A stretch of DNA of 40,175 bases from a virus. The notes under the pieces were generated by a model. The model was not told the origin of the DNA. It searched no databases and saw nothing but the letters and a program-made list of their open reading frames with translations. The stretch is from IMG/VR virus record IMGVR_UViG_3300047553_000208, positions 1 to 40,175 of that record. The stretch is one strand, 5' to 3'. This document shows positions 13,978-26,966 of this stretch, piece after piece. Position numbers and translations under genes: made by a program. Positions within the stretch are counted from its first letter, which is position 1, and each line of letters begins with the position of its first letter.

Positions 13978-13981
13978 GCCG

Positions 13982-14053
13982 TAGCGCGACAGGGAATTGA
14001 ACCCTGATTACAAGGTTGAAAACCTTGCGTTCTAACCATTGAACTACCGCGCC
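13982..14053 (-). tRNA. tRNA-Glu (anticodon UUC)
   Basis: The 72-base cloverleaf is complete: acceptor GGCGCGG/TCGCGCT with two G-U pairs, D stem GTTC/GAAC with a GG-containing loop, anticodon stem CAAGG/CCTTG with loop TTTTCAA (anticodon TTC), variable TAAT, T stem CAGGG/CCCTG with loop TTCAATT, discriminator A. CCA is not encoded. It reads GAA codons. It is probably transcribed leftward with the two zinc-ribbon genes upstream. Confidence 0.93.
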
Positions 14054-22619: not shown

Positions 22620-22988
22620 CTAACCAAAGACCACATCGCCAATGACTGCAACCTGTAAGACTGCATCACCGCAAACGGCATCGTATTGGTCAAAGTCAAA
22701 CAAGTCCATATAAACTTTCTTGTTTGCAATAGGTAGCGCCAAGGCAATGTCGTCAATGGTGATTACCTTCTCAACATTTTCGTACTTATCGTTATGACAT
22801 ACGAGGCGCACCTTGCTAGTTGGGTCGTCCCAATCACCGCTAATGTATTCGTACTCCTGCCAATGGTCGCCAAAGGTTTCCCATGCTGACCCCATAACTG
22901 CTGACCATAATTCCTTGCGGTCTAACTCTACGGGTATGACGATGGTGCCTTGTCCGTTGGCATTTACATGCCCTGTTGTGTTGCTCAT
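22620..22988 (-). CDS. Acidic hypothetical protein
   Basis: The 122-residue protein starts at 22988 after GACAGGAGAAAGCAA. It is acidic with a Trp-rich segment (SAWETFGDHWQEYEYISGDWDD) and a beta-rich second half (KVITIDDIALALPI; VLQVAVIGDVVFG). No motif is recognised. It lies in a chain of overlapping early-type genes. Confidence 0.65.
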   Translation of the reverse strand: MSNTTGHVNANGQGTIVIPVELDRKELWSAVMGSAWETFGDHWQEYEYISGDWDDPTSKVRLVCHNDKYENVEKVITIDDIALALPIANKKVYMDLFDFDQYDAVCGDAVLQVAVIGDVVFG

Positions 22989-23122
22989 TTGCTTTCTCCT
23001 GTCTGAAATGGATTGGGTGCTGTGATATTAAATTGTTTTACTTTGACCATGCAAGGGACACATATACCCTGCATATCTTCAAGCATTAAAAATGCCTGAG
23101 ACTTCTTACATAATCCGCACAT
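22985..23122 (-). CDS. Small zinc-ribbon protein
   Basis: The 45-residue protein starts at 23122 (AGACAGGAGAAAAAG before it), with MCGLCKK and GICVPC as a C-x2-C pair, ending QTGESK on the shared junction. An earlier start at 23173 would add residues across the promoter region and is unlikely. First gene after the CRP-type site at 23194. Confidence 0.65.
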   Translation of the reverse strand: MCGLCKKSQAFLMLEDMQGICVPCMVKVKQFNITAPNPFQTGESK

Positions 23123-23193
23123 CTTTTTCTCCTGTCTGTTGTTGTTAGTTATTACTCTGCCACCCGTTGGCATAGTAAGTCAAGCATTTGTCA

Positions 23194-23209
23194 TGTGATG
23201 TTGGTCACA
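23194..23209. promoter_or_regulatory. CRP/GlxR-type operator 1
   Basis: TGTGATGTTGGTCACA is a perfect TGTGA-N6-TCACA palindrome. Ten bases after it in the leftward direction is TTGACT (23183-23178), a -35-like hexamer upstream of the gene starting at 23122; I see no clear -10. The 19-base context CATGTGATGTTGGTCACAC is identical at operator 2. CRP-family proteins (GlxR in many actinobacteria) bind this consensus. Confidence 0.65.
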
Positions 23210-23216
23210 CTCTGTC

Positions 23217-23447
23217 TTAATACCGAGGGTATCCATCAGGGCAACCGACTCCATCTACTAGACATGACTCGGGTATGTCCCAAACTCCCATCGCATTTGT
23301 GATTGCAAATAGCGCGGTTAGTATTAAGACATAAATCAGGATTGCCCTGACCCGTTTGCCTCGCTTATTAAGTTTTATTTTTTTCGTTTCTTTCTCGCAT
23401 ACACATAGCCACATTACTTGCCCGCAGTCATCGCAGTAATCACTCAT
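23217..23447 (-). CDS. Small membrane protein with Cys N-terminus
   Basis: The 76-residue protein starts at 23447 after AAAGGAG. It has YCDDCGQVMWLCVC, a Lys-rich stretch, then one membrane segment (AILIYVLILTALFAITNAM, about 45-63) and an outer tail with two Cys. The N-terminal Cys may bind zinc inside the cell. Candidates include superinfection exclusion or membrane sensing; unproven. Stop lies in a TATTAAGACA motif. Confidence 0.65.
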   Translation of the reverse strand: MSDYCDDCGQVMWLCVCEKETKKIKLNKRGKRVRAILIYVLILTALFAITNAMGVWDIPESCLVDGVGCPDGYPRY

Positions 23448-23632
23448 CGGTTGTACTCCTTTGCATGTGAGCATTGGTTGAGGGGGATAAGGCAGTCACC
23501 GCAGATAGTCACCTGAATCCTTGTAAGGAACTCCGATAACTTTTCCTTCACATAGAATCTGCATGTGGTTTTGTGTTGGTCATAGACATACGCATCACAC
23601 ACGATGCAGTTTTTATTTGTGTCGTAAGACAT
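23444..23632 (-). CDS. Small Cys-rich protein
   Basis: The 62-residue protein begins in a TAATG overlap at 23632. It has CIVCDAYVYD, then TCRFY, then ICGDCLIPLNQC: two C-x2-C pairs spaced as a zinc ribbon. It ends four bases into the next gene. Function unknown; one of several zinc-ribbon genes in this region. Confidence 0.65.
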   Translation of the reverse strand: MSYDTNKNCIVCDAYVYDQHKTTCRFYVKEKLSEFLTRIQVTICGDCLIPLNQCSHAKEYNR

Positions 23633-24153
23633 TACGCTACCGCCGATAGTTCTGTCTTAATACCTGAAAGAATCTGATTCAAGATTTCAAGTGTCTTGAA
23701 CTCAAGCCCGCCGATGGTGTCGTGTGACCATACATGCTCGCCTGTGACTCGTTCAATCTCCTTGCATAGCGCCTTGATTGCTGGCTCGCGCTGTTCTTTC
23801 TGGTGCTTGCGTTGTAAATGGCGGGCATACTTTGCGCCTCTGCCCCCGTCTGGTGTTGCGTAGGTTCGGCGGTGGTCTGTGGTCATTTGTGCGATGGCAT
23901 ATTGCCACTCGGTGCGGATATGGTTAAGGGCTACCCATTTTTCTTTGCCTTGGTAGTCCTGTATTAAGACATCGCGGGTGCGCCGTTCCTTTTCATATTG
24001 TGTCTTAAGTTGTGTCTCAATGATGACTACCCTGCGCCATCTGTTGCGCTGGGCTGTCTTGAAATAAGATTCTGCCCCGTTGTACTTGTCGCGCCAGTTG
24101 GCAGACTCACTCATATAGTAAGCCTTGCCTATAATTAGTTCTGCTCTTTTCAT
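23632..24153 (-). CDS. Basic hypothetical protein
   Basis: The 173-residue protein starts at 24153 (CGACAGGAGAACAGCAA before it). It is strongly basic, mostly helical, with Arg/Lys/Gln-rich stretches (FKTAQRNRWRRVVIIETQLK; YARHLQRKHQKEQREPAIK), suggesting nucleic-acid binding. No known domain. It follows structured element III and CRP-type site 2 of the leftward series at 24251. Confidence 0.65.
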   Translation of the reverse strand: MKRAELIIGKAYYMSESANWRDKYNGAESYFKTAQRNRWRRVVIIETQLKTQYEKERRTRDVLIQDYQGKEKWVALNHIRTEWQYAIAQMTTDHRRTYATPDGGRGAKYARHLQRKHQKEQREPAIKALCKEIERVTGEHVWSHDTIGGLEFKTLEILNQILSGIKTELSAVA

Positions 24154-24179
24154 TTGCTGTTCTCCTGTCGTGATAAGGC

Positions 24180-24250
24180 GGAGAGACTTTCTCTCCTACC
24201 TTGTGCCCCAATGGTTGCATGACAACCGCGCTTTCTTCAAGATTTGGGGC
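24180..24250 (-). promoter_or_regulatory. Structured leader element III
   Basis: In leftward reading, GCCCCAA (24250-24244) pairs with TTGGGGC (24211-24205). Inside is hairpin GGTTG/CAACC next to the 3' arm. After CAC and five bases comes hairpin GGAGAG-AAAGT-CTCTCC (24196-24180), then GACAGGAG and the start at 24153. It abuts the operator at 24251. Same plan as elements I, II and IV. Role unknown. Confidence 0.5.
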
Positions 24251-24266
24251 TGTGATTTTCATCACA
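24251..24266. promoter_or_regulatory. CRP/GlxR-type operator 3
   Basis: TGTGATTTTCATCACA is a perfect TGTGA-N6-TCACA site. Ten bases leftward is TTGAAG, a weaker -35-like match in the same place as TTGAC at the other sites. It overlaps the last codons of the gene ending at 24262 and directly joins structured element III. Confidence 0.6.
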
Positions 24267-24384
24267 CCTGTCTTAATACATAATGAGGCTTGACCTCTTT
24301 CTTCACCCAGCCTTTCTCCTTTGTCCAGTAATACTCGAACTCTGTCTCTTGTACCTCTACCCATGTGTAAGTGTTGTCACTCAT
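24262..24384 (-). CDS. Tiny acidic/aromatic protein
   Basis: The 40-residue protein starts at 24384 after AGAGGAGGCG and reads TWVEVQETEFEYYWTKEKG, then ends VLRQV over the TTAAGACA motif. It overlaps the previous stop (TGATG). Function unknown. Confidence 0.6.
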   Translation of the reverse strand: MSDNTYTWVEVQETEFEYYWTKEKGWVKKEVKPHYVLRQV

Positions 24385-24533
24385 CACGCCTCCTCTGTAA
24401 TCTTCACGATGGTGCAGGCTTGTTTGTTAGCCTCAAGCATGGCTTTAATCTCTGCCATCTTCTCCATGCTGTTGGTCGTGTTGAGTCCTGAAAAGGTGCC
24501 ACGCTTTGAGTAGATTTCGTATGTAATTTTCAT
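24384..24533 (-). CDS. Tiny hypothetical protein
   Basis: The 49-residue protein starts at 24533 in a TAAGACATG junction, with GAGG nine bases earlier inside the previous gene. It reads ITYEIYSKRGTFSGLN, then a helix and CTIVKITEEA: a small beta-alpha-beta shape. Function unknown. Confidence 0.6.
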   Translation of the reverse strand: MKITYEIYSKRGTFSGLNTTNSMEKMAEIKAMLEANKQACTIVKITEEA

Positions 24534-24536
24534 GTC

Positions 24537-24857
24537 TTAAGCCTCAATTCCTAGCGTTTCCTTATCGCGGGCGATTACTTCGCGGGCGATGATGTCGAAA
24601 GGTGATGAACCCATGCCGATGAGTATCTGTCTTAAGACATTAGCCCCAAACTCTGTAATTTCTTCCTCTGAGTTTTCGATTACTTGGCTCGCTAGTTGCT
24701 CGAACTGTTCGCGGATTGAGTCGCTAAGTTGTGGCATGTTGTACTTAACTCGGCGGGCTTCCTGAGTAATCTCGTCCCAACCTTCGCGGTCGTTTTCAAC
24801 CACGAGCAGATAGTCATCTGCGAATTGCTGACTTGCTGACTTTACTTCTTCTGACAT
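24537..24857 (-). CDS. Acidic helical hypothetical protein
   Basis: The 106-residue protein starts at 24857 (AGACAGGAGAAAGAA before it). It is acidic and almost all helix: YLLVVENDREGWDEITQEAR, then LSDSIREQFEQLASQVI and VLRQILIGMG. The general type is common among early genes of actinophages, without function. It follows structured element II. Confidence 0.65.
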   Translation of the reverse strand: MSEEVKSASQQFADDYLLVVENDREGWDEITQEARRVKYNMPQLSDSIREQFEQLASQVIENSEEEITEFGANVLRQILIGMGSSPFDIIAREVIARDKETLGIEA

Positions 24858-24881
24858 TTCTTTCTCCTGTCTTAATACATA

Positions 24882-24946
24882 AAGAGACTCTCTCTTCATG
24901 TAGTGCCCCGCCGAGCCTCGCTCTCGGTCGCCGTCTAGGTCGGGGC
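24882..24946 (-). promoter_or_regulatory. Structured leader element II
   Basis: Leftward, GCCCCG (24946-24941) pairs with CGGGGC (24910-24905). A 5-bp hairpin with a 7-base loop, CCGAG/CTCGG (24927-24911), abuts the 3' arm, like a T-arm stacked on an acceptor stem. CAC follows, then hairpin AAGAGA-GAG-TCTCTT (24896-24882), a TTAAGACA copy and the start at 24857. Confidence 0.5.
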
Positions 24947-24956
24947 GTTGCTCACG

Positions 24957-25085
24957 CTATGCGTGGCAATCGCACGCGCATTTCACATTGGCTATGAAAT
25001 CCGCAGGGTATCCAATCGCAGAGAGTTTTCTCTCGTCTGCGTTGCATAGGTAGTGCTTCTCTTTGTTGCACGCCTTGCTCATCAT
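24957..25085 (-). CDS. Tiny Cys-rich protein
   Basis: A 42-residue reading starts at 25085 (or the next ATG, 25082) after AAAGGAGGG, the best ribosome site in this region. It has five Cys and a late CACDCH cluster (about residues 36-41), so metal binding is likely. It is the first gene after the operator at 25153. Short length lowers confidence; function unknown. Confidence 0.6.
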   Translation of the reverse strand: MMSKACNKEKHYLCNADERKLSAIGYPADFIANVKCACDCHA

Positions 25086-25152
25086 CTGCCCTCCTTTCTC
25101 GGTCGTGGTGTCACCTTCTCATGCGGAGATTGAGCGTGTCAATCATTTCGCA

Positions 25153-25168
25153 TGTGATGTTGGTCACA
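25153..25168. promoter_or_regulatory. CRP/GlxR-type operator 2
   Basis: TGTGATGTTGGTCACA is identical to the site at 23194, including flanking bases. Ten bases leftward is TTGACA (25142-25137), a consensus -35. The gene starting at 25085 is the first downstream. No clear -10 is seen. Confidence 0.65.
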
Positions 25169-25175
25169 CCTAACC

Positions 25176-25240
25176 CTCAACTTGAGGTTGAGAGTTCGTG
25201 CCCCCGTTGGATTGTGAACCCGTACCCTGTCGGCGGGGGC
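25176..25240 (-). promoter_or_regulatory. Structured leader element IV
   Basis: Leftward, GCCCCCG (25240-25234) pairs with CGGGGGC (25206-25200). GGGTTCACAATCC inside can form a small hairpin with a seven-base loop. CAC follows, then hairpin CTCAAC-CTCAA-GTTGAG (25192-25176), then the operator at 25168. Upstream is the 14-base palindrome GTGTCTTAAGACAC (25245-25258). Confidence 0.5.
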
Positions 25241-25249
25241 TGTTGTGTC

Positions 25250-25555
25250 TTAAGACACGAGGCTCTCTTTCCATATCTCGTGAGCGATTTCTTGAGTCTC
25301 GCGGTAATCCTTCTCCGATAGTTCCGACATCAAAAGACGGCGGTTATAGGCTTCTTGGCTCGCGCCGTTGGTGCCTTTGACCCATAGGGTAATCGCCTCA
25401 TCTTGCAGGGCGGGGGCGATGAGTTTCATTAGGGCATGAAATGCCTCGCGTTCTGCCTTGTCGCCTTCTATCTGTTGAGATAGTCGCCATGTTGCAGGGG
25501 TGCCAAATCCATCTTCTTTGCGGGATTCTTCCCATTGTTCGCGGATAGTTCTCAT
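25250..25555 (-). CDS. Small helical hypothetical protein
   Basis: I place the start at ATG 25555, eight bases after CGACAGGAG; the ATG at 25561 is too close to that site. The 101-residue product is helical and charged (REQWEESRKEDGFG, REAFHALMKLIAPAL, SEKDYRETQEIAHEIW). No family recognised. It lies between structured elements I and IV. Confidence 0.65.
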   Translation of the reverse strand: MRTIREQWEESRKEDGFGTPATWRLSQQIEGDKAEREAFHALMKLIAPALQDEAITLWVKGTNGASQEAYNRRLLMSELSEKDYRETQEIAHEIWKESLVS

Positions 25556-25588
25556 GTTCATTTCTCCTGTCGTTTTATGTCTTAAGTC

Positions 25589-25659
25589 AGAGAGACTTTC
25601 TCTCTAACTCGTGCCCCCGCTAGGTCTTGAACCTGCGCCGACTTAATCGGTGCGGGGGC
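25589..25659 (-). promoter_or_regulatory. Structured leader element I
   Basis: Leftward, GCCCCCGC (25659-25652) pairs with GCGGGGGC (25620-25613). Inside are CCGA-TTAAG-TCGG and AGG-TTCAAGA-CCT, whose seven-base loop fits the tRNA T-loop pattern. CAC, then hairpin AGAGAG-AAAGT-CTCTCT (25605-25589), TTAAGACA and the ribosome site follow. On the other strand it ends in four T, but no rightward gene lies there. Confidence 0.5.
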
Positions 25660-25668
25660 TTTTCTGTC

Positions 25669-26307
25669 TTAAGCCTCGGTGAATAGCCCCTCGCATGATT
25701 CACAACGCACGCCCGCTTTGATGACTGAGGCGCTTGCGCGGATTATCTGCTCACAATCGCAAGTGGCTTTGATGAGGTTGGTGTTTCTGCCTTTCTTCTT
25801 AGCCTGCTCGCCACCAAGCGCCACCAAATCAAACGCATTTGCAAGCACCTTGAGCGCCTTGTTCCATCGCTTGGCACCAAACTCGGTCAACTCGGTTGCA
25901 GCGTGCCCCTTGCCTTTGATTTCTATGGTCTTAAGACCTAACGCCTCGGCTTGAGCCTTAAACTTTGCGTTGTGGTACTGATTCGCTGAGCAATCCTGCA
26001 CGCCGTTAGCGTGATTGAGTGAGTGCGCCACCTCGTGAAGAAGAGTCGAAAGCAACTCGGCGGGGGTTGTGAAATGCTCAAGGTTGAAAGCAATCTCGTT
26101 GAAAGATTCCTCGCCTGCCTTCCATGGTGTGGAGGGTGTGAAGTGTCCTTTTCTGCCCTTGAGGTCACGAGTCACGAGAAGAGTTGCACGAGGTGCGCCT
26201 GTCTCGGCTTTGATGATGTCGTGAGCAGATTCAAGCGCCTTGGTGATTGTTGAGAGCGCCTCGGCTTTGGTTGCCTTGCCTGCCTTGGTTGCGGTTGTTG
26301 CGGTCAT
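25669..26307 (-). CDS. SprT-like zinc metalloprotease
   Basis: I start at ATG 26307 (AGACAGGAGAAACGAC before it), giving 212 residues; a reading from 26352 lacks a ribosome site. It has TLLHEVAHSLNHANGV (HExxH zinc site, about residues 91-106) with a later Cys/His end (CDCEQIIRA and CESCEGLF), a zinc ribbon as in SprT/Spartan proteins. Such proteases can remove protein-DNA crosslinks; phage copies are common in actinophages but their target is unknown. First gene of the leftward region. Confidence 0.8.
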   Translation of the reverse strand: MTATTATKAGKATKAEALSTITKALESAHDIIKAETGAPRATLLVTRDLKGRKGHFTPSTPWKAGEESFNEIAFNLEHFTTPAELLSTLLHEVAHSLNHANGVQDCSANQYHNAKFKAQAEALGLKTIEIKGKGHAATELTEFGAKRWNKALKVLANAFDLVALGGEQAKKKGRNTNLIKATCDCEQIIRASASVIKAGVRCESCEGLFTEA

Positions 26308-26419
26308 GTCGTTTCTCCTGTCTTGAGTCTTAAGTCCTTGTGACTTAATCACTAGGAGATTTCTATCGCCTCGGATTGAGCGCGGTCAAATCCAAATGAG
26401 CGTGAGTCGAAAAAAACTT

Positions 26420-26435
26420 TGTGAGATGCATCACA
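26420..26435. promoter_or_regulatory. CRP/GlxR-type operator 4
   Basis: TGTGAGATGCATCACA is a perfect TGTGA-N6-TCACA site, 113 bases before the protease start. A TTGACC lies further leftward (about 26390), not at the ten-base distance of the other sites. A 6-bp hairpin GTCTCA-AATAG-TGAGAC (26455-26471) lies upstream. Confidence 0.6.
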
Positions 26436-26742: not shown

Positions 26743-26966
26743 TTTTGCCGTAGGCAAAAAACCCGTAAAAAAACTTTGTACAAAAGTGTCCGCTAAGGAC
26801 CTTTTGGACACCTATAGTATAGTGAGAGGCGAAATAATCGGAGCCTCTCTACACACTAGCAGCGACCCTGGGGGTCGCACCCTAAGAGAAGCCCTAACCT
26901 TCGGCTTCGTTTAGACTACGCCTACGGTTAGGAGATAAGCCCGAAACTTCCTTTACTGCGTTTCGG
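26743..26966 (+). promoter_or_regulatory. Structured leader of terminase operon
   Basis: Five perfect 7-bp inverted repeats: TTTTGCC/GGCAAAA (26743), GAGAGGC/GCCTCTC (26824), GCGACCC/GGGTCGC (26862), CCTAACC/GGTTAGG (26893/26926) and CCGAAAC/GTTTCGG (26941/26960). GTGTCC/GGACAC (26786/26806) just before TATAGTATAG (26813) may be an operator and -10. AGGAG (26930) is 33 bases from the ATG; the last hairpin, if formed, leaves seven. Confidence 0.5.

Follow-up and report, generated by a model that had tools for sequence, protein, structure and literature searches.

The stretch of viral DNA analyzed here, IMG/VR record IMGVR_UViG_3300047553_000208 at its full length of 40,175 bases (the window), encodes TerL, a portal protein, a WhiB homolog, a phage sigma factor, and a transglycosylase domain. 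The palindrome TGTGA-N6-TCACA, a predicted binding site for regulators of the Crp/GlxR family, occurs exactly at positions 23194, 24251, 25153, and 26420 (sites 1-4) and at no other position, and sites with one mismatch are absent from the whole window. All four lie upstream of genes read leftward, about 70-110 bp from the start codons, and the ribosome-binding sites of these genes are of the GACAGGAG or AGGAGG type. The features of the region are as follows.

23194..23209, minus strand: site 1, Crp-type operator, exact match (TGTGACCAACATCACA in leftward reading)
23154..23183, minus strand: predicted promoter of site 1 (TTGACT, 18 bp, CAGAGT), operator 10 bp away
22985..23122, minus strand: cysteine-rich gene of 45 amino acids behind site 1, an open reading frame (ORF) with Shine-Dalgarno sequence GACAGGAG
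24251..24266, minus strand: site 2, Crp-type operator, exact match (TGTGATGAAAATCACA)
24211..24240, minus strand: predicted promoter of site 2 (TTGAAG, 18 bp, AACCAT), within a three-way junction
23632..24153, minus strand: gene of 173 amino acids behind site 2, an ORF with a Shine-Dalgarno sequence
25153..25168, minus strand: site 3, Crp-type operator, exact match
25113..25142, minus strand: predicted promoter of site 3 (TTGACA, 18 bp, GAAGGT), operator 10 bp away
24957..25085, minus strand: small ORF of about 42 amino acids behind site 3, with Shine-Dalgarno sequence AGGAGG; the gene at 24537-24859 is next
26420..26435, minus strand: site 4, Crp-type operator, exact match (TGTGATGCATCTCACA)
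26360..26389, minus strand: predicted promoter of site 4 (TTGACC, 18 bp, TAGAAA), operator 30 bp away
25669..26307, minus strand: gene for a SprT-like protein behind site 4 (PF10263, 5e-6; phrog_6361, 1.6e-43)
26787..26818, plus strand: terL promoter (TGTCCG...TATAGT), from aligned promoter regions of TerL relatives

The cysteine-rich gene opens a leftward gene group whose last member encodes WhiB; the 173-amino-acid product has no match in Pfam or PHROG. Chance would supply 0.04 exact sites in the window (40175/4^10), or 0.09 under a third-order Markov model (maximum of 1 over 100 simulations). The four perfect sites reported in the original prediction are borne out, and so are its two finer observations: 19 bases are common to sites 1 and 3 (CATGTGATGTTGGTCACAC), and at sites 1-3, in leftward reading, a -35-like hexamer (TTGACT, TTGAAG, and TTGACA, respectively) begins at the 11th base past the palindrome, leaving 10 bp between them. 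Site 4 differs, with TTGACC-N18-TAGAAA at 30 bp from the operator.

The presence of a WhiB homolog in a phage indicates an actinobacterial host. TerL of the window is 50% identical to that of the Streptomyces Beephvirinae podophages and 47% identical to that of OX376640 and OX376641, the Planktophila phages LanE43AprE7 (E7) and AprF5 (F5), which were isolated on Candidatus Planktophila and are the first phage isolates for Ca. Nanopelagicales (PMC10202952). The corresponding GenBank files (OX376640.1 and OX376641.1) are filed under 'Caudovirales sp. ct2KA10' and carry no annotation. Relatives come from lakes and soil, and the host of the window virus is probably a freshwater actinobacterium; a TerL search of genome contigs found neither a prophage nor a host contig.

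The scan of relatives for the consensus that had been proposed as a check was carried out on 80 TerL relatives, and the sites proved to be conserved in place. Relatives that have the window's left-hand region contain three to five exact sites at matching places, and their six spacer bases and downstream genes vary while the sites stay. Site 1 is kept at the matching place in L003, L005, L007-L009, L013, L050, and L075, and its promoter in relatives reads TTGACA-N18-TTAAAT or TAAAGT. Site 2 is kept both in relatives, three of which (L050, L077, and L014) have TTGACA in place of its -35 box, and in E7 and F5, which have two exact sites each; one of the E7 sites is site 2, adjoining structure included. 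Site 3 is likewise kept, and 11 relatives (L001-L006, L011, L013, L050, L075, and L079) have an exact site corresponding to site 4 at -548 to -575 relative to terL; the promoter of site 4 in relatives reads TTGACA/TTGACC-N18-TATAAA or similar and lies 21-30 bp from the operator. In L013 (1530/1562), L050 (6501/6533), and L075 (6089/6121), two operators in tandem, spaced by 32 bp (three helical turns), precede a single promoter.

In most relatives, the Crp-type site is found at the promoter of terL, a late gene, rather than in the leftward operon. Well-covered relatives outside the window's group have one such site, either exact or with a single mismatch, located 211-214 bp upstream of terL, where it stands 10 bp ahead of a TGTCC...TATAGT promoter; the window has kept this promoter, but without the operator. 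Seven Streptomyces phages, one of them in the opposite strand orientation, have a pair of sites upstream of terL; when six of them are aligned on the promoter, the nearer site of the pair precedes TGTCC by 9-11 bp and GGTATA by about 35 bp. Conservation on this scale, against an expectation of 0.04-0.09 exact sites, excludes a chance origin. The palindromes might also be read as RNA or DNA hairpins, their arms being able to pair and a structured RNA adjoining site 2, but it is the sequence of the arms that is kept and not the pairing: L029, L030, and the Streptomyces sites alter one arm without compensation in the other. Hairpin or chance together make the least probable of the explanations weighed here.

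The distance from operator to promoter is conserved as well. Among 30 non-redundant sites from the window's group, E7, and F5, TTGACA (at least five of six bases) is found at +10/+11 in 14, compared with 0.4 expected, and in none on the opposite side. Sites and promoters thus make up a conserved module of operator, 10-11 bp, -35 box, 17-18 bp, and -10 box. Scans of IMG/VR for an exact site followed by TTGACA at a set distance gave the counts below, in which those for 10 and 21 bp are lower bounds; the 18-bp scan, at an E. coli-like spacing, served as a control.

9 bp: 94 stretches, 36 non-redundant loci, 4 loci with a WhiB homolog
10 bp: at least 119 stretches, at least 97 loci, at least 50 with WhiB
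11 bp: 107 stretches, 52 loci, 23 with WhiB
14 bp: 7 stretches, 5 loci, none with WhiB
18 bp: 43 stretches, 29 loci, none with WhiB
21 bp: at least 120 stretches, at least 71 loci, at least 9 with WhiB
10 bp with reversed arms: 28 stretches, 16 loci, none with WhiB

The distance is helically phased, recurring with a period of one helical turn, which is the pattern expected of an activator that touches RNA polymerase. The spacer between TTGACA and TANNNT in these loci is most often 17 bp, and this, added to the site distance, puts the predicted Crp center near -54. The exact composite site-N10-TTGACA is absent from 347 Actinomycetota genomes, where only about 0.5 would be expected by chance; the module does occur in phage contigs without detectable similarity to window proteins. 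In five low-GC phage contigs (L105, L108, L123, L138, and L171), an operator-N10-TTGACA-N17 promoter stands immediately before an ATG, as in leaderless mRNAs, and there are as many as eight exact sites per locus.

The original prediction relied on the host having a CRP-family protein, and a regulator with a cyclic-nucleotide-binding domain is encoded in 53 of the 61 genomes of the presumed host family. Genomes of Ca. Planktophila, reached via actinorhodopsin with the LG1 primers (PMC3699509), contain one Crp/GlxR ortholog, which aligns over its full length to Crp of Mycobacterium tuberculosis (E=5e-80), has an unchanged recognition helix (GASRETVNKAL), and is encoded next to a gene that reads as endonuclease III. 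A Crp-type helix-turn-helix protein was searched for in the phage and not found. Perfect sites are rare in the host family, with three exact copies in 41 genomes. In 780 kb of one host-family genome (G032, L274-L312), there are 5 sites with no more than one mismatch, compared with about 18 expected, and the resulting ratio of 0.27 is the lowest among 26 half-site arrangements tested (next, 0.69). Such depletion is the outcome expected of selection against stray strong Crp sites and therefore supports the idea that host Crp reads this sequence. In the same genome, regions outside ORFs make up 6.4% of the sequence yet contain 27 of 220 two-mismatch sites, an enrichment of about twofold.

Two other explanations were weighed. 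The sites could be targets of a different protein, for example a regulator of like specificity encoded by the phage, given that no function is assigned to several leftward phage proteins and that the sigma factor and WhiB show the phage to run regulation of its own. The specificity, however, is that of host Crp, whose genome avoids exactly this palindrome, the phage has no detected Crp-type helix-turn-helix, and the module recurs in phage contigs in which no similarity to window proteins was detected; we regard such a protein as improbable. Alternatively, the sites could act as decoys that titrate Crp off host genes during infection, being nearer to consensus than almost any host site. A decoy has no need of a fixed distance to a -35 box, and the copies are few, which makes this highly improbable.

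The preferred reading, to which we assign a probability of roughly two in three, is that the phage promoters obtain RNA polymerase through host Crp bound near -54. At each of sites 1-3, a Crp dimer of the host, its center some 54 bp ahead of the predicted start of transcription, would touch the polymerase at the -35 region and so recruit it to promoters of weak to moderate strength in the leftward accessory operon; site 4 would act on the SprT-like gene from farther away, and the same module would drive terL in most relatives and in the Streptomyces podophages. Phage sites would be preferred by Crp because perfect sites are avoided in the host's own DNA. This suggests that the virus uses a host regulator to switch on its own genes, and early timing of the leftward units is plausible.

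Several points weigh against this reading. The -10 boxes of the window sites are poor, and the -35 boxes are good enough that the promoters might not need an activator. In the class I promoters of E. coli, such as lac, Crp is centered near -61.5, about 17 bp from the -35 box; the 10- and 21-bp distances do not fall in phase with that arrangement, and the operator position is not one from which E. coli Crp activates. Site 4 spacing is inconstant across relatives (21-30 bp), the site 2 promoter shares its bases with an RNA-like structure, which could itself be what is under constraint at that place, and the window's own host is presumed from a TerL identity of 47% to E7 and F5. The strong -35 boxes and the operator position would also suit a host Crp that binds yet represses, blocking or delaying the phage promoters in the way cyclic AMP (cAMP)-Crp acts on pir, dam, and recE of phage T1, a direct precedent with E. 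coli Crp (PMC6737242). The sites stand, however, upstream at a single fixed, helically phased distance and not over the promoter or start, and it would be strange for several perfect sites to be kept if their sole effect were to harm expression. Moreover, mapped Crp sites in M. tuberculosis cluster between -60 and -40, a zone that takes in the predicted position of the phage operators, and upstream binding there tends to raise transcription (PMC4117774). We therefore consider repression unlikely, though less so than a foreign binding protein.

Host Crp/GlxR control, as originally proposed, is thus supported by the operator type, the conserved placement, the fixed promoter distance, the ortholog in the host clade, and the lack of a detected Crp in the phage, whereas the proposed link to host carbon state found no support. 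Class III adenylate cyclase (PF00211) was detected in none of 61 host-family genomes and CYTH in 1 of 41, these two classes being the ones searched, with Corynebacterium glutamicum as a positive control detected by both searches; in addition, Crp of M. tuberculosis can bind DNA in its apo form, the gain from cAMP being only about 2-fold (PMC4005916). A carbon-state signal is accordingly unsupported in the presumed host; it is possible in Streptomyces.

The closest known systems are the Crp/GlxR-activated promoters of Actinomycetota (M. tuberculosis Rv3676, C. glutamicum GlxR, and Streptomyces Crp), which have the same palindrome, protein family, and recognition helix; what sets the present case apart is phage DNA, perfect sites, and a rigid composite of site-N10-TTGACA-N17/18-TANNNT. 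Phage T1 is likewise wired to host Crp, but there a proteobacterial phage is repressed in response to cAMP (PMC6737242), whereas here the phages are actinophages, activation is probable, and a role for cAMP is doubtful. Class I promoters have an upstream Crp site and dependence on helical phase in common with the module, yet not its distances, which are 10 bp at sites 1-3, 30 bp at site 4, and 9-11 or 21 bp across phages. The Planktophila phages and the Streptomyces Beephvirinae share both related TerL proteins (47-50%) and Crp-type sites with the window, E7 and F5 also having WhiB and a sigma factor; the Streptomyces sites are at terL, in contrast to those of the window in the leftward operon. 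Our literature search, which covered open-access papers, turned up no account of Crp sites in actinophages: the parts of the E7/F5 paper available to us make no mention of them (PMC10202952), and the words Crp, cAMP, and promoter are all absent from the Abafar paper (PMC11536984).

Phages of a very abundant freshwater bacterial group thus seem to rely on a single host regulator at several of their promoters. With the architecture found across IMG/VR actinophages and cultivated Streptomyces phages, whether a lytic phage needs host Crp is now testable, and the helical phasing offers a natural mutagenesis of the actinobacterial contact between Crp and RNA polymerase, which appears to be unlike that of E. 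coli. Host avoidance of perfect sites suggests why phage sites would win.

The structure at site 2 is a three-way-junction RNA element of 46 nucleotides with a 7-bp closing stem and two hairpins, and the window contains three further copies (E-values are from covariance model R2).

24205..24250, minus strand: three-way-junction element by site 2, E=5e-20 in the window
25607..25664, minus strand: second copy, E=7e-14, directly past the stop codon of the SprT-like gene
25194..25245, minus strand: third copy, E=7e-11, directly past the stop codon of the ORF at 25250-25561
24899..24951, minus strand: fourth copy, diverged, E=0.001

The same fold is present in 10 relatives, including E7, where 98.6% of cells are paired in a hand alignment (76.9% when shuffled); MAFFT misaligned the first hairpin, and pairs were counted on the hand alignment and then on model-based ones. 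Covariance models R1 and then R2 identified 51 copies from 35 sources, every one of them in the same orientation as the leftward genes. In alignment A4, which is fitted to the model and, like other covariance alignments of the junction, leans toward it, 94.1% of cells pair (67.8% shuffled; 28-48% in slid controls), and 154 cells are changed on both sides, compared with 45.7 shuffled, so the covariation is strong. A generic descriptor scan for tRNA-like folds had been too unspecific (15, compared with 2-8 in shuffles) and was replaced by the covariance models. The family is also present in E7 and F5, and its copies lie in gaps of the leftward operon, mostly right behind stop codons.

The junction resembles a tRNA lacking the anticodon arm, with a closing stem, a T-arm-like hairpin containing TTC, and a discriminator-like A; it is not called by ARAGORN and has no match to the Rfam tRNA model and no anticodon arm. 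Most copies without a Crp site in front begin 7-17 nucleotides past a stop codon. The first hairpin is TTGACA-like in copies behind a Crp site and usually not in others, as if promoter and RNA element were overlaid in the former. Both elements may belong to a single module, undescribed as far as we have searched, in which a rigid Crp-contact promoter, an apo-competent host Crp, and perfect, host-avoided sites would be combined with tRNA-like junction marks after stop codons that cut or stabilize polycistronic mRNA (e.g., through RNase P or RNase Z), with one sequence at site 2 acting both as the operator's promoter and as such a mark; we offer this joint reading tentatively, as a possibility less probable than not. 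Several leftward genes also have a short hairpin (e.g., GAGAGAAAGTCTCTC) that separates the ribosome site from the junction or promoter (24170-24200, 24875-24895, and 25585-25605).

The phage carries a tRNA-Glu gene with a TTC anticodon (13981-14053, minus strand). The repeats TTAAGACA/TGTCTTAA occur 36 times in the window, compared with 1.9 expected, concentrated at 13.8-26.3 kb on both strands and mostly oriented along transcription. They often form a stop codon context fused to the next ribosome site (TAAGACAGGAG), are also found within genes, and are abundant only in relatives that have the left-hand region.

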